64,000 nucleotides of DNA from Arcobacter roscoffensis. Lineage in GTDB: Bacteria; Campylobacterota; Campylobacteria; Campylobacterales; Arcobacteraceae. This document shows positions 4,161 to 9,796 of this stretch, in pieces. The notes under the pieces were generated by a model. It ran no database searches and was not told the origin of the DNA. It was given only the letters and a program-made list of their open reading frames with translations. Each line of letters starts with the position of its first letter. Positions within the stretch are counted from its first letter, which is position 1. A program made the translations under genes and the position numbers. Where the stretch lies: NCBI RefSeq assembly GCF_024267655.1, contig NZ_CP100595.1, forward strand, positions 2,046,001 through 2,110,000. The letters run 5' to 3'.

Positions 4161-4718
4161 TTAATTTAATGCATCATTAACATCAGGTAGACAAACAACT
4201 TCTGCAGGTAACAAATCATCAATATGAATATCACCAATTCGAACTCTAACTAATCTCAAAGTAGGAAAGCCAACAGCAGCAGTCATTTTTCTAACCTGAC
4301 GTTTTTTACCCTCGCATACCGTAATAGATACCCAACTAGTTGGACCATGTCTTGAATCACGAATATTACGTCCACGATTAGGCAAGTTAGGCTCACCTTT
4401 TAAAGCAAAGGATTTACAAGGAAGTGTTAGATACTTTTTCCCACTTACAGTAATCTCCACACCATTTTGTAGCTTCGATACTGCTTCTTCTGTAATCACT
4501 CCATCAACTTGAGCGTAATACTCTTTTTCTATAGATTTGTTTCTTACCTTATGACTTGTTACACCATCAGTTGTAAGTAATAGTAAGCCTTCTGAATCAT
4601 GGTCTAACCTACCAATAGCCATAGTTCCTTTGGGAAAGTCGTAAAAATCACCAAGTAGGCTTTTGTTTTTCATCTTTTCTTGAACAAACTGACTTAAACA
4701 GCCATGTGGTTTAAACAT
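4161..4718 (-). CDS. rluE: 23S rRNA pseudouridine synthase RluE-type
   Basis: A 185-residue RsuA-family pseudouridine synthase without an S4 domain, the RluE arrangement, which modifies 23S rRNA. The catalytic segment GRLDHDSEGLLLLTTDG (Asp in RLD) is intact, as are KEYYAQVDG, RHGPTSWVSITVCEGKKRQV and LVRVRIG. The first ATG at 4718 falls inside the motif that normally reads x-F-K-P-x-G-x-L-S-Q-F; the in-frame codons upstream (SKQEKKHYHFK) continue the expected N-terminus. They are preceded by AAGGA and a codon ATC at 4752-4754, so translation may begin there with a rare start codon, giving 197 residues. No canonical start exists upstream before the stop at 4758. Confidence 0.88.
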   Translation of the reverse strand: MFKPHGCLSQFVQEKMKNKSLLGDFYDFPKGTMAIGRLDHDSEGLLLLTTDGVTSHKVRNKSIEKEYYAQVDGVITEEAVSKLQNGVEITVSGKKYLTLPCKSFALKGEPNLPNRGRNIRDSRHGPTSWVSITVCEGKKRQVRKMTAAVGFPTLRLVRVRIGDIHIDDLLPAEVVCLPDVNDALN

Positions 4719-4909
4719 CTTAAAGTGATAGTGTTTTTTTTCTTGTTTTGAGATAGTTTATTCCTTAAGGTAGTTTTGTTGTTAATAAAAAATTGAATTT
4801 TTAATAGTTTTATTTTCTAATGATCTTTTTTGCTTCTTGTTTTGGTGCAGTCATAATTTACTCTAATCTTTGTCCATTAGATTTTGAATTATAATGGTTT
4901 ATAGAAATT

Positions 4910-4940
4910 GGAAACTCAACACCTGACCTATTTCAGGGGA
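4910..4940. repeat. Short repeat copy 1 beside toxin gene
   Basis: Begins GGAAACTCAACACCTGACC and continues TATTTCAGGGGA. It matches the copy at 5548-5575 in the same orientation, and part of it recurs inverted at 5511-5528. The copies enclose the toxin-antitoxin pair. This looks like a mobile-element boundary sequence; I recall similar GTCAGGT motifs near REP-associated transposases, but cannot confirm this. Confidence 0.55.
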
Positions 4941-4958
4941 GTGCTAATCATAAGCTTG

Positions 4959-5240
4959 TTATCTATGTTTAAAATCAACAACTGCAATAATTAGTTTATC
5001 ATCTTCGATAAGATAAAAAAGTCTATAATTTCCAATCCTATATCTATAATAACCTTCAAGATTATCTTTTAACTTTTTAATATTTGTTCCATAAAAAGGA
5101 TTTTCTCTAAGCTGAGGATAAACAAAGTTTACAATTTTTGAATATAGCTTTTTATCTATCTTTTTTTTAACTTTTTCAAAAGTTTTAGTTTCAGCAATTT
5201 GATACTTAGACAATTGTGTAATCACCATTTTTAAAGTCAT
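4959..5240 (-). CDS. RelE/ParE-family toxin
   Basis: A protein of up to 93 residues with the RelE/ParE pattern: two N-terminal helices (FEKVKKKIDKKLYSKIVNFV), then YPQLRENPFYGTNIKKLKDN, and the beta core YYRYRIGNYRLFYLIEDDKL ending IIAVVDFKHR. The Arg of YRYRIGNYR and the C-terminal HR are the usual candidates for RNA contact. The frame overlaps the antitoxin gene by 35 bases; the internal Met at 5228 is an equally good start. It probably cleaves mRNA on the ribosome (RelE) or targets gyrase (ParE); sequence alone does not decide. Cognate partner is the gene at 5206-5442. Confidence 0.88.
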   Translation of the reverse strand: MTLKMVITQLSKYQIAETKTFEKVKKKIDKKLYSKIVNFVYPQLRENPFYGTNIKKLKDNLEGYYRYRIGNYRLFYLIEDDKLIIAVVDFKHR

Positions 5241-5442
5241 CTAAACCATTCATTAGATTTTGAACTAGTTCTTTATCATCCATTATTTCAGCCATCTCAT
5301 CATTCTCTACAAATTGTGATGATGTTAAGTATTGTATTGTTGCAAACTCTATGAAATTTGAAAGATTTCTTTTTTGACCTTCAGCTGCAAGTTTTATCAT
5401 ATCATAAACTGAATCATCTACTCTCATAGTTACTGTTTTCAT
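5206..5442 (-). CDS. Ribbon-helix-helix antitoxin
   Basis: A 78-residue protein starting MKTVTMRVDDSVYDMIKLAA, a beta strand followed by two helices as in CopG/RelB-type ribbon-helix-helix antitoxins. The C-terminal half (EIMDDKELVQNLMNGLDDF) is acidic and would wrap the toxin. The gene lies upstream of and overlaps the toxin frame, the usual order for a type II module. A promoter is likely in the AT-rich 70 bases above 5442, where the antitoxin would autoregulate. Part of the accessory island between rluE and guaA. Confidence 0.88.
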   Translation of the reverse strand: MKTVTMRVDDSVYDMIKLAAEGQKRNLSNFIEFATIQYLTSSQFVENDEMAEIMDDKELVQNLMNGLDDFKNGDYTIV

Positions 5443-5510
5443 AGTATATCCTTTGAATATTTACTAATACTATTGTATTCAATTTTATTCAAATTGTCAA
5501 TTAAACTAAG

Positions 5511-5528
5511 GTGTTAGGTGTTGAATTG
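5511..5528. repeat. Inverted repeat copy 2 beside antitoxin gene
   Basis: GTGTTAGGTGTTGAATTG is the near reverse complement of the core of the copy at 4913-4926 (CTCAACACCTGAC). The toxin-antitoxin pair therefore lies between inverted ends about 614 bp apart, in addition to the direct repeats. Confidence 0.45.
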
Positions 5529-5539
5529 TGAATTTAGTT

Positions 5540-5647
5540 TTAAAAGTGGAAATTCATGACCTGACCCCTATTTTTCCTATTTTTATATTGCTCTTTTAAA
5601 ATTGAATTCTTTATTTCTTCATAATCTGAAGTTCTCCACATTGCCAT
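5540..5647 (-). CDS. Possible 35-residue peptide or gene remnant
   Basis: A frame starting MAMWRTSDYEEIKNSILKEQ, preceded by AGGAG nine bases upstream. It runs through the repeat copy at 5548-5575, which supplies its last residues. It follows directly after the boundary of the attC-like site at 5663-5799, where an integron cassette gene would be expected to start. It may be a genuine short cassette peptide or the 5' end of a gene cut short by the repeat. I do not recognise it. Confidence 0.3.
   Translation of the reverse strand: MAMWRTSDYEEIKNSILKEQYKNRKNRGQVMNFHF
5548..5575. repeat. Short repeat copy 3
   Basis: Begins GGAAATTCATGACCTGACC and continues CCTATTTTT; direct repeat of the copy at 4910-4940 (GGAAAxTCAxxACCTGACC shared, then TATTT). 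With copy 1 it encloses the toxin-antitoxin module. Confidence 0.55.
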
Positions 5648-5662
5648 TTACATTTGCTCCTA

Positions 5663-5799
5663 TATATAACGTCATAGTTGAAAAACAACGGTGGATTTAT
5701 ACAAGATTTATTTACTCTTTAATATATCTGACTTTATAGAGTAAATGCTTATAATTTTTGTAACGTAACCTTGTTTTTCTTCCAACGATTTGTTATATA
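5663..5799 (-). mobile_element. attC-like integron recombination site 1
   Basis: A 137-bp imperfect palindrome with attC architecture. The outer R boxes are perfect 8-bp complements (TATATAAC at 5663-5670, GTTATATA at 5792-5799). Unpaired spacers of 6 and 5 bases follow, then inner boxes (GTTG with AAAAACAACGG, pairing with CCTTGTTTTT and CAAC) that include a bulged base, as the extrahelical bases of attC do. Read on the minus strand it begins 3 bases after the stop of the nuclease-GHKL gene and ends in GTTATAT, the position of the G/TT crossover. Found by eye; no covariance model was run. Confidence 0.72.
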
Positions 5800-5802
5800 G
5801 TT

Positions 5803-7008
5803 TTATACGTGCTCTACTTTAATTCTATCTATAATACCATAGTGTTCTGCAAATCCTTCTATATAATTTTTAAAGAAAATATCTTGATTTCTTATTTTAA
5901 AAACTATATTACATGTTGTGTCATTCATAATTCTATTAATAATTTCAGCTTTATGACTAATTGCCATTTGACTTTCTATTACATCTATAACAAAGTCTTC
6001 ACATTCATTATTTTTAGATTTTTTTATAATTTCATCAATTAAAGTATTCCTAATTTCAAAATGAAATAGTTCATCTCCTTGAATCATTACTATACAATCC
6101 TCATTAATCAAATTTCTATTATTTTCAAATGTAATTATTAATTCATTTCTATTATCTTTATATTTGTATTCTAATGATAATTCCTTTATATTATTTTTTA
6201 TATGGTTTATGGTGTAACTACCTCCACCAGTTTTTTTTGATAATTCAATTAATGGATTAAATCTTTTACCATCATCAATGAATATAAAAGAATTTTGTTG
6301 TTTTATTATTTGTACATCATTTGCATAGCCATGTTTTTGTGCATTTAATAATAACTCTTGAAAAAGAAAATTTATATATTTCAATTCATTTGGAGATAAA
6401 CTATTATCATATTTTTTTAAAAAAATATTTATATTTTTTAATGAAGGTGGGCTAAAATTAGTTAAGTCAATATTTACAAATTTATTATTTGGAACTGTAT
6501 GTTGATGTATTTCATGTATTTGCAAAGCTTCTTGTATATTAAATATTGAAGAATATACCTTTTCTTGTTTTGCATAATTAATTAAAGTGCTTCCCTCTTT
6601 ATAGTCAATAACAATATTATTAAGTTTATATTGTTCAATAATACTTTTTTTCATTTTATTAAACCAAATAATCTCATCTTTGGTTAAATCTTTCGGTAAA
6701 CAGAGATACCATGCAGTTAAATTATAATCTTCATGTTCAATTGCACGAATAAGAGATTTTTTAATTTGTTGTTTTTGTGAATCATTTAAATTATTAAGAA
6801 AATATTTACATTGATAAATATCAATTGGATTAATGCCTAGGTCACCAATATAAATATCTATCCCTCCATCACCTTTATATCCTGCTTTAACCGTATGTGC
6901 ATTTTGATACTTTGATTCTAAAATTGACAAACATGACTTCTCGTAAAAATCTCTAGCTCCAACTTCACCATACATGCTTTTTAAATCATGAAAGTCTTTT
7001 TCTTCCAT
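5803..7008 (-). CDS. PD-(D/E)XK nuclease fused to GHKL ATPase
   Basis: A 401-residue protein I do not know as a described family. Residues 1 to about 150 form a restriction-endonuclease-like domain: GDGGID at 46-51 followed by IYQCK at 64-68, the D-x(n)-Q-x-K core of Mrr-type nucleases. Residues about 205-295 form a GHKL ATP-binding domain like anti-sigma-factor kinases: N-box FQELLLNAQKHG (216-227), IDDG (244-247), and GGG at 261-263. The last 100 residues (from about 300) are an alpha/beta segment, possibly STAS-like, not confidently assigned. There is no membrane segment. The gene sits alone between two attC-like sites, with 3 bases from its stop to one, so it appears to be a mobile cassette gene. 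A defence role is inferred, not shown. Confidence 0.82.
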   Translation of the reverse strand: MEEKDFHDLKSMYGEVGARDFYEKSCLSILESKYQNAHTVKAGYKGDGGIDIYIGDLGINPIDIYQCKYFLNNLNDSQKQQIKKSLIRAIEHEDYNLTAWYLCLPKDLTKDEIIWFNKMKKSIIEQYKLNNIVIDYKEGSTLINYAKQEKVYSSIFNIQEALQIHEIHQHTVPNNKFVNIDLTNFSPPSLKNINIFLKKYDNSLSPNELKYINFLFQELLLNAQKHGYANDVQIIKQQNSFIFIDDGKRFNPLIELSKKTGGGSYTINHIKNNIKELSLEYKYKDNRNELIITFENNRNLINEDCIVMIQGDELFHFEIRNTLIDEIIKKSKNNECEDFVIDVIESQMAISHKAEIINRIMNDTTCNIVFKIRNQDIFFKNYIEGFAEHYGIIDRIKVEHV

Positions 7009-7055
7009 ATTTTACTTCCTTTAAATTTAGGTATTTTAATATTTAAAAGTTCACT

Positions 7056-7192
7056 TATATAACGACTGAAGTGAGGGACGATGTAACCCTCAATCAGTTT
7101 GCTGATTTATTTTAAATAACCAATATATTCAAGCTAATTAATGCTTAAATATTCGCTGGGTTACTCGTTCCTCTCCTCTGTTTTGTTATGTA
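7056..7192 (-). mobile_element. attC-like integron recombination site 2
   Basis: A 137-bp imperfect palindrome, the same length and orientation as site 1. R boxes are TATATAAC (7056-7063) and GTTATGTA (7185-7192), complementary but for one G/T pair. Spacers are 6 and 5 bases. The inner arms (AGGGACGATGTAACCC near 7074-7089 and GGGTTACTCGTTCCT near 7158-7172) pair over about 15 bases with a bulge. Read on the minus strand, the site starts 1 base after the stop of the gene at 7194. The 160-180 bases between the two genes are therefore accounted for by this site. Confidence 0.75.
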
Positions 7193-7193
7193 T

Positions 7194-7724
7194 CTAATTA
7201 TAAAGTAAATCCGATGTTTTCTTTATATCATCAATCATTGCTTTTAATATTTCAAGTCTTGCATTGCTTAAATCTTTTATCGTATTAAAATCTTTGTTGA
7301 AATACTTTGTATATTTATTATCATTTTTACTTTCTTTTTTTTCTACATTTTTTGCATTATAGTTTAATTCTATTGCTTTATGCAGTTTAGGAATTAGTGA
7401 TACAACGCTATTCTCAAAATAAAGTAGCAACATTTGAGTTTTTGATGATAATAGGTTCATATGCTTATGATATGTAAAGGTTTTCTTTAGAACATTATTA
7501 TTAAATTTTGGATTACAATCAAGAATATTATTTTTACATATATCTATATTAGCTGATAGTTCAGCTTGTGATAATTTATAATCTTTTGCTAGAACTTCTA
7601 ATACTAATATTCCAGAATTTATTTCTTCTAATAAGTTAACTTTTCTATTCAATAATTCTTGTAGCCTTTCCTGTTTCATTCTATTTTTCCAATATTCTTG
7701 TTCAGATTCTAGTTGATAGTTCAT
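7194..7724 (-). CDS. Unknown coiled-coil protein; membrane anchor out of frame
   Basis: 176 residues, rich in Lys, Leu and Asn, mostly helical with a likely coiled coil near the N-terminus (EQEYWKNRMKQERLQELLNR). No family recognised. The frame is open upstream of the ATG at 7724 and encodes a hydrophobic stretch (IGLTEIVLTAIFTSLATLVS) preceded by Lys-Lys-Arg, which looks like a signal anchor. An ATG with a strong ribosome site (GGAG, 5 bases before) lies at 7808-7810, but 8 As after it put it one base out of frame. With 9 As the product would be a 205-residue membrane-anchored protein. Located between attC-like sites 2 and 3, so also a cassette gene. Phase variation, decay or sequencing error are all possible. 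Confidence 0.65.
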   Translation of the reverse strand: MNYQLESEQEYWKNRMKQERLQELLNRKVNLLEEINSGILVLEVLAKDYKLSQAELSANIDICKNNILDCNPKFNNNVLKKTFTYHKHMNLLSSKTQMLLLYFENSVVSLIPKLHKAIELNYNAKNVEKKESKNDNKYTKYFNKDFNTIKDLSNARLEILKAMIDDIKKTSDLLYN

Positions 7725-7799
7725 TAAAAAATATGACGAGACTAGTGTTGCAAGTGATGTAAATATTGCAGTTAAAACTATCTCAGTTAGTCCAATACG

Positions 7800-7807
7800 T
7801 TTTTTTT
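7800..7807 (-). other. A8 homopolymer at cassette gene start
   Basis: On the minus strand the start ATG (7810-7808) is followed by 8 As and then CGTATTGGA. Eight As give M-K-K-N-V-L-D-stop; nine would join the ATG to the downstream frame with its membrane anchor. The tract thus acts as a potential on/off switch by slippage. Confidence 0.6.
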
Positions 7808-7826
7808 CATATTACTCCATTTTATA

Positions 7827-7904
7827 TACATAACTAATTATTAGTACTGCATTATATATAAATAATATATAAAAGCACCTAATAGTACTACATTTTTTAT
7901 GATA
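7827..7904 (-). mobile_element. Degenerate attC-like site 3
   Basis: TACATAAC (7827-7834) on the left, identical to the complement of the right R box of site 2, and TTATGATA (7897-7904) on the right. The inner boxes TAGTACT (7842-7848) and AGTACTA (7884-7890) are perfect complements, with 7- and 6-base spacers. The right R box is a poor match and the site is only 78 bp. On the minus strand, GTTATGTA lies 16 bases before the ATG of the downstream cassette gene, where a cassette boundary is expected. Confidence 0.45.
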
Positions 7905-8175
7905 AGATACTAAATTGATATAAAGTCCTTAAATAAGCTATTTCTAGGATTTTTTTAAATAATATATTACTATATGTAATATTTTTATCATAATTTATAT
8001 ATCTGATATAATTTTCAATGTTAGACTATTAATGTATATCAGTAATAGCTTATCAAAATGATATACTAGAGTTCAAGAAAGAAAAAATATTACTGTAGTG
8101 CTTAGAATAAATAAAGCAGAAAATAAAAAATGAACTTAAAATCAGATTGGAAATTTCTAAGAAGTTTTATGTAGA
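7905..8175. other. AT-rich gap, no gene seen
   Basis: About 270 bases of very AT-rich DNA with stops in all frames. It contains several imperfect palindromes but no coding signal, tRNA or recognisable integron integrase. It separates the cassette-like island from guaA. Confidence 0.5.
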
Positions 8176-8257
8176 TTTTGCCAAGGTATGACAAAGGTGT
8201 ACTACAAGTACATCGAAGTCATACTTTGGTGAAAGATGCGCCGAAATTACGGCAAAA
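8176..8257. repeat. Nested hairpin element downstream of guaA
   Basis: Outer arms TTTTGCC (8176-8182) and GGCAAAA (8251-8257) enclose a 12-bp stem CCAAGGTATGAC / GTCATACTTTGG (8181-8192, 8218-8229; one G/T pair) with an inner stem GTGTAC / GTACAT. A separate perfect palindrome GCCG-AAATTA-CGGC lies at 8240-8253. The element begins 4 bases after the guaA stop on the minus strand and could form its transcript's 3' end, though it lacks a clear T run. Confidence 0.5.
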
Positions 8258-8260
8258 ATA

Positions 8261-9796
8261 TTATTCCCACTCGATAGTTGCTGGTGGTTTTGAAGATATA
8301 TCATAAACAACTCTGTTGATTCCATCAACTTCATTGATGATTCTTCTTGAGATTGTTTCTAAAATATCATGAGGGATATGAGCAAATGTTGCTGTCATAC
8401 CGTCAGTTGCTTCTACGATTCTAACACAAACTGTGTTATCGTAAGTTCTGTTATCACCCATAACACCTACTGATTTTACGTTTAGTAAAACTGTAAATGC
8501 TTGCCATGTTTTATCATATAATCCAGTAGCATGTAATACGTCTAACATAATAGTATCAGCTTTTCTTAAAAGCTCTAAGTCAGGCTTATTTACATCTCCC
8601 ATAACTCTAATAGCAAGTCCTGGTCCAGGGAAAGGATGTCTTCCAATCATATCTTTTGGAAGTCCAAGCTCTAAGCCTAAAAGTCTTACTTCATCTTTGA
8701 AGATTTCTCTTAAAGGCTCGATTAACTCAAATGTCATCCAATCAGGTAAACCACCTACATTGTGGTGAGATTTGATAGTTTTTGAAGGTCCTTTTACAGA
8801 TACAGACTCAATAACATCTGTATATAAAGTACCTTGTGCTAAAAACTCAATACCATCGTGCTTTTTAGCTTCTACATCAAATACTTCGATGAAAGTCTCA
8901 CCAATGATTTTTCTTTTTGTTTCAGGGTCAGTAACACCTTCAAGTCTTGAAAGGAAAGTTTCACTAGCATCAACAGTGATTAAAGGAACACCTCTTGATT
9001 TAAACATAGCTTCAACTTGTGGTCTTTCGTTTGCTCTTAAAAGTCCATTATCAACAAATACAGGGATTAGTTGGTCACCAATAGCTTCTGCTAAAAGTGT
9101 AGCAACAACAGATGAGTCAACACCACCTGATACACCACATAATACTTTTTTAGATCCTACTTGGTCTTGGATTTTTTTGATTTGCTCTTTTGCAAATGAA
9201 CCCATATTCCATGTAGATTCACATCCACAAATATGTTTTGCGAAGTTTTTAAGAAGTTTAGAACCCTCATCTGAATGGTAAACTTCAGGGTGGAATTGGA
9301 ATGCATAAATTAATCTATCAAGATCAGCAATAGCTGCATAAGGAGAGTTTTCAGAAGTAGCGATTTTTTCAAATCCTGAAGGAATTTTTTCAACTCTATC
9401 TCCGTGAGACATCCATACAGTTTGACCATCTGTTGTATCTTTGAAAATATCAGATTGCTTTTCAAAGTTTAGTTTAGCTTTTCCATACTCATGGTGATCA
9501 GCTGGAATAACAGATCCACCAAAGTGTTGAGAAATAAGCTGCATACCATAACAGATTCCTAGAATTGGAAGTCCAAGCTCAAATACAGTTGCATCTGGGT
9601 GATATGAATCTTCTGCATAAACTGACGCTGGACCACCTGAAAGGATAATTCCCTTAGGAGTTCTTGCCATAATATCTTCAATACTTTCAGAATAAGGTAC
9701 TATCTCAGAATATACACCAGATTCTCTAAGTTTTCTAGCAATAATTTGTGTATATTGACTACCAAAATCTAAAACTACTATTGGTACATGTTTCAT
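8261..9796 (-). CDS. guaA: GMP synthase (glutamine-hydrolysing)
   Basis: A 511-residue enzyme that amidates XMP to GMP using ATP and glutamine in the cytoplasm. The N-terminal class I glutamine amidotransferase domain (about 1-195) shows the nucleophile in GICYGMQL and the His-Glu pair in FHPEVYH. The ATP-pyrophosphatase domain has SGGVDSS near residue 225. The C-terminal dimerisation domain ends in KPPATIEWE, as in most family members. Length is standard. Transcribed alone; a nested hairpin element follows the stop and the nhaD terminator lies upstream. Confidence 0.98.

Follow-up and report, generated by a model that had tools for sequence, protein, structure and literature searches.

A chromosomal integron at the 3' end of guaA in Arcobacter roscoffensis that has very probably lost its integrase in place

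Introduction

How do attC sites come to stand together in a chromosome with no integrase gene beside them? The question is raised by a locus within a 64-kb stretch of DNA (hereafter "the window", G000:C1:2046001-2110000) from a 3.15-Mb single-contig genome of the Campylobacterota (G000), where the initial annotation had described an integrase-less attC cluster at 5663-7904 and believed such clusters to be rarely reported in the phylum. The supposed rarity holds only in part. In published work the Campylobacterota already figure in the list of integron-bearing phyla, and it has been proposed that CALINs can arise when intI is lost (PMC8618304); moreover, an integron integrase model was matched at E<=1e-30 in 44 of the 397 Campylobacterota genomes sampled, while no paper devoted to Arcobacter integrons was found in the literature searched.

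The attC Sites

The cassette sense is the minus strand of the window, on which the order of elements is attI, gene A, attC site 2, gene B, and attC site 1. The two attC-like elements, site 1 (5663-5799) and site 2 (7057-7193), lie about 1.26 kb apart, are each 137 bp long, and share the same orientation; their R boxes are complementary and their inner arms bulged, as initially described. A covariance model pairing the R and L boxes (R1) was built from 45 attC sites of other Campylobacterota genomes, taken from loci that adjoin an integron integrase (alignment A1), with no sequence from G000 in its training. In the 64-kb window, this model placed site 2 well above background (43.7 bits, E 2.6e-7), and the next match, at only 16 bits (E 0.43), overlapped site 1 with the wrong right arm because the sites used to train R1 were short, at about 68 bp. 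Run with filters off, the short-site attC model recovered neither site 1 nor the full site 2.

Since both sites have long variable loops, a scan was added in which left-arm and right-arm matrices were scored together with the complementarity of the inner stem. Site 2 ranked first in the 64 kb (54.5) and site 1 second (33.7), followed by a match at 22.6, as compared with a maximum of 28.5 and a mean of 15.8 in 100 dinucleotide-shuffled windows. An array of genome G292 (L106) contains a site that shares 74% identity with site 2 over 133 bp, and an attC of the orthologous L103 integron agrees with site 1 at 27 of 31 positions of the left arm. The inner stem, covarying in site 1, is kept in ten long-loop attC sites from this and other arrays, with seven of its ten pairs changed on both sides. 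When the single strands were folded as DNA, the plus strand of the window, which is the bottom strand of the attC sites, gave z scores of -4.3 (site 1) and -5.2 (site 2), with none of 200 shuffles as good, against -2.75 and -4.3 for the opposite strand. Given the R''/R' boxes of the form AAC...GTT, the imperfect L-box pairing with an extrahelical base, and the bottom-strand fold, both elements, site 1 being the weaker, are judged to be genuine attC sites. No match was obtained from Rfam at the gathering threshold; at a relaxed threshold, a plant microRNA match to site 2 was the sole one and was judged to be due to chance.

The attI Site and the Remains of intI

The element at 7827-7904, formerly regarded as a third, weaker attC, is a real feature of another kind: its fold is near background (z -1.2 to -1.4), and it shows clear homology to attI instead. 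The attI site (7831-7937, minus strand) was matched at 76.2 bits and E 1.8e-22 by a profile built from 19 copies, none of them from G000, which also matched the copies at two other loci of this genome, L009 (1.3e-21) and L070 (1.3e-16). The crossover G lies at 7834; 23 intI-attI intervals align as far as TAG^TTA and diverge beyond, and this divergence therefore marks the crossover point. Adjoining the site is the former upstream region of intI (7938-8062, minus strand), assigned by homology to L009, the second integron of the genome, and to the guaA-locus integron of genome G428. The interval 7834-8062 aligns with its L009 counterpart, which separates the intI pseudogene from the first cassette (score 283; shuffle mean 137, maximum 179), attI and the upstream region together being 73% identical to the L009 intI-attI interval (E 4.9e-31), and identity to the G428 integron reaches 97% across the attI block, the intI upstream region included. 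Judged by such comparison, the attI of the window is identifiable although integrase-less. It contains TATAAT at 7856-7851, possibly the -10 box of a Pc promoter.

As the initial annotation had stated, no intact integrase exists in the 64-kb window; what had escaped it are two intI fragments at 8068-8170. Remnant 1 (RVQERKNITVVLRINKAEN, 8068-8124, plus strand) corresponds approximately to residues 88-106 of the IntI of L025, and remnant 2 (KIKNELKIRLEISKKFY, 8120-8170, plus strand) to residues 174-190, with single-HSP tblastn E values of 2e-4 and 2e-3, respectively, for matches of only some 18 codons each. The remnants lie collinearly in the attI-guaA interval, and their plus-strand orientation is that expected of a divergent intI. 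Against 30 IntI proteins they score 48 and 46, above shuffle maxima of 41 and 42, so that none of 500 shuffles reached the real score in either case. At the DNA level, 34 of 42 bases of remnant 1 match the orthologous intI of L103, and 21 of 23 bases of remnant 2 match the intact guaA-locus intI of L122. A 13-bp match to intI (AAGCACTACAGTA) was set aside for its wrong orientation.

A genome-wide search for intI, one of the checks initially proposed, revealed no intact copy in G000; apart from the fragments in the window, the only match was a pseudogene at C1:1033537-1034321 (L009), frameshifted near residues 95-99, internally deleted, and accompanied by its own array. Of what defines a complete integron, the window lacks an integron integrase gene with its additional domain and holds an attI beside the fragments of intI, together with attC cassettes in one orientation starting at the G^TT of attI. 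The view of the locus as an integrase-less attC cluster is thus right as to the lack of a functional integrase, but what is present is a whole integron in degraded form, with attI, intI remnants, and cassettes.

The guaA Site in Related Genomes

The chromosomal anchor is guaA (8261-9796, minus strand), whose orthologues border integrons in relatives. Between it and the intI remnants lies a hairpin region (8165-8260) native to the locus, a similar hairpin stretch being seen by eye after guaA in the orthologous L103. On the far side of the array stands a chromosomal gene for an rsuA-like pseudouridine synthase (4161-4718, minus strand; Pfam 2.4e-18), which follows guaA without an integron in L128 and L138, and within about 0.65 kb in genome G323.

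Of 104 family genomes, 99 yielded a guaA 3' end, and examination of 23 of these loci showed an integron or what is left of one in 13, a fraction that does not represent prevalence, the loci having been chosen partly for integron hits; neither attC nor attI was detected at the guaA 3' end in the other 10. The integrase gene is intact in two genomes, G292 (L121) and G429 (L122), and decayed in eight (G427, G431, G434, G442, G430, G395, G428, and G207; loci L103, L123, L124, L125, L133, L134, L101, and L126), with L103 retaining a nearly complete intI. In the remaining three, namely the window, G376, and G426, no intI was recognisable by this survey, the fragments in the window having been found separately. 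Among the closer orthologues of the window locus (G427, G428, and G207), intI is damaged in all. The attI at the two intact loci is of a clearly different sequence type (weakly matched at E 1.5e-4 in G292, with no match listed for G429), and these two integrons may represent another lineage at the same position rather than strict orthologues. Conservation of one site across related species, the mark of a sedentary chromosomal integron, is found at guaA.

The Cassettes

Cassette A (7063-7833, minus strand) runs from G^TTATGTAT to its own attC, and its 5' end GTTATGTAT is exactly complementary to the R'' box ATACATAAC that it carries; likewise, the 5' end of cassette B (5670-7062, minus strand), GTTATATA, complements its own R'' box TATATAAC. 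Such complementarity, of 9 and 8 bases in the two cassettes, is a requirement of a circularised cassette. Their compactness was correctly noted, in that the stop codon of gene A (7194-7811, minus strand) ends at 7194, 1 base before attC site 2, and that of gene B (5803-7008, minus strand) at 5803, 3 bases before attC site 1.

The product of gene A would comprise an N-terminal membrane segment and a soluble part, and has a relative in an integron neighbourhood of Rhodonellum psychrophilum (36% identity over 200 aa). Positions 7811-7724 read as ATG and eight A's, beyond which the open frame is displaced by one base. Since the relative in L171 aligns upstream of the annotated ATG at 7724, the gene is apparently frameshifted in the A8 run that follows ATG 7811, this run being a probable frameshift or slippage site.

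Gene B encodes 401 aa, of which residues 7-155 were matched by the PADLOC models of LmuA (3.5e-21) and Avs2 (2e-8); this stretch resembles the nucleases of Lamassu LmuA and Avs2, suggestive of a role in defence. The C-terminal part looks, by motif, like a GHKL ATPase with a STAS-like domain, a reading for which Pfam gave no confirmation. No homologue of the protein was confirmed in a scan of the genome contigs.

The array also reaches beyond the interval 5663-7904. After attC site 1 lies the truncated remnant of cassette C (5576-5669, minus strand), which begins at G^TTATATATAG and appears to consist of a short ORF running into REP-like sequence. The REP-like element (AGGGGTCAGGTCATGA..., 5514-5575, minus strand) is 84% identical over 62 bp to the sequence after the attC of L070, with 10 related matches genome-wide against none for a reversed control. 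It is followed by the body of cassette D (4941-5502, minus strand), a toxin-antitoxin cassette whose attC has been lost and which encodes an RHH-type antitoxin (5206-5442) and a ParE/RelE toxin (4959-5240; Pfam ParE 8.4e-10). These 562 bp share 90.6% identity with a segment flanked by two attC sites in L108 (G323), with further relatives in the arrays L058 and L045 and at the locus L123, and the homology stops exactly at the expected start of R'', where REP-like sequence takes over. Still present in the array are two cassettes that retain both ends, a third that is truncated, and the body of the toxin-antitoxin cassette.

A second REP-like element lies at approximately 4905-4940, the body of cassette D standing between the two, and both elements sit where the array lost attC sites. 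Others of the AGGGGTCAGGTCATGA type occur at G000:C1:1996028, 1997048, 1825414-1827451, and 709898, some of them paired in opposite orientation at a distance of about 1 kb.

Other Integron Loci in the Genome and the Family

The second integron of G000 extends from C1:1033537-1034638 onward (L009 9532-13240), 1 Mb from the window locus, and holds an attI and several attC cassettes, one site having a damaged R'' box. A third locus (C1:709243-709810; L070 8744-9311), flanked by a PepSY-like gene and rpsB, consists of an attI and a single attC cassette with no intI.

The number of integrase-less attI sites carried by the Arcobacteraceae came as a surprise: 45 strong sites were found in 26 family genomes, with a TIGR02249 match within 1.5 kb at only 6, a ratio biased towards the attI type of the window by the seeding of the profile from its homologues. 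A dispersed repeat of about 300 bp (L107 7290-7590; also in G376, G427, G395, G434, and G122) reaches up to 23 copies per genome.

Origin of the Locus

We hold it very probable that the locus is a sedentary chromosomal integron at the 3' end of guaA from which intI was lost in place by deletion. Sequence comparison supplies its foundation, namely attI, attC sites, intI remnants, and the integrons of relatives that occupy this site with an intact intI. Counted against it are the shortness of the remnants, the poor modelling of attC site 1, and the differing attI type at the intact loci. Recombination of attI with folded attC sites by IntI at G^TT is the established integron mechanism. At the intact stage, intI would have been transcribed divergently from attI, towards guaA; IntI would have joined circular cassettes to attI at G^TT via the folded bottom strand of attC, and a promoter in attI would have driven transcription of the first cassettes. 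Later, intI would have been cut down to two fragments. As intI is erased at guaA and broken elsewhere in G000, the array is probably frozen now and would be inert unless IntI were supplied in trans, the first cassettes perhaps still being transcribed from the TATAAT of attI. The simplest history would be a resident guaA integron whose intI was lost repeatedly; replacement by a second lineage is possible, given that the attI type differs between the intact loci and the closest relatives of the window locus.

A broader proposal would make the orphan attI-plus-cassette platforms of the Arcobacteraceae satellite capture sites, served in trans by IntI encoded elsewhere, some of them having spread without intI together with the 300-bp repeat; on this view, which is unlikely, the window locus would be one such platform. 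More narrowly, attI and cassettes might have arrived as a unit already devoid of intI, a non-autonomous mobile platform as may exist at other loci of the family. The scarcity of integrase matches near the strong attI sites is in keeping with such a unit, as is the repeat, which often lies just upstream of orphan attI, at the expected place of intI, several non-orthologous loci (L102, L104, and L111, for example) sharing an identical intI truncation next to it. No copy of the repeat exists in G000, however, whereas internal fragments of intI survive in the window, and closely related integrons occupy the same chromosomal site, L103 with its nearly complete intI; this origin is very unlikely. 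Off-target insertion, in which an IntI from elsewhere would have placed circular cassettes into an attG-like secondary site near guaA to form a CALIN, could draw on the second integron with its intI pseudogene and similar attC sites. It would bring no attI preceded by the former intI upstream region ahead of the first cassette, no intI fragments beyond attI, and no complete or decayed guaA integrons in relatives, and has consequently been rejected as having very little probability. That the locus is no integron at all, but a run of ordinary genes separated by unrelated palindromic repeats or terminators, is barely credible: the weak covariance score of attC site 1 would fit, but independent attC and attI models match, the stems covary, cassette-sized homology links the locus to other arrays, and integrons stand at the same site in relatives.

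Comparison with Known Systems

In situ decay of intI, our preferred reading, has direct precedents in Xanthomonas and Treponema. The Xanthomonas integron at ilvD (PMC12444791) likewise occupies one ancestral chromosomal site beside a housekeeping gene, with an integrase mostly inactivated by frameshifts, stops, or large deletions, and the genome has more attC clusters without an integrase at other loci; the window locus differs in phylum, in its position at guaA, and in its attC and attI types, and attI was here found in integrase-less loci too. The Treponema phagedenis remnant (PMC3607928) retains attC sites and cassettes in the ancestral location, where no intI was found, whereas the window also keeps attI and intI fragments, and relatives display intermediate stages of decay. 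The locus shares with the CALIN class of IntegronFinder 2.0 (PMC9024848) at least two attC sites within 4 kb without an integrase, a label that needs both sites to be detected; the class is operational, in contrast to a locus with an attI and a known origin by loss of intI.

One origin of integrase-less attC clusters can be followed directly at a single chromosomal site, where the integrase of one related species or another is intact, frameshifted, truncated, or nearly erased and attI is kept. The attI sites of non-clinical integrons are recognisable by comparison, which in one family exposes many integrase-less platforms that would be overlooked or wrongly labelled in searches based on integrases or attC sites. 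IntegronFinder detects no attI outside class 1 (PMC9024848), which may be why orphan attI sites have drawn little notice; no paper on orphan integrase-less attI sites was found in the literature searched.

Further Observations

Genome G129 has two copies of the ParE toxin-antitoxin cassette within one array (L058 7360-8003 and 8583-9226), and the cassette is also found in L108, L045, and L123. Several Campylobacterota arrays (L045 5652-5779, L046, L048, L051, and L058) contain repeated gene-less cassette-like units, which start at GTTATCCG and possess a very GC-rich long stem (CGGATAACGGGGGCGCGGG...CCCGCGCCCCCGTTA). Genome G443 carries tandem copies of attI about 1.1 kb apart (L109 6523-6698 and 7599-7872), with one attC after the second.
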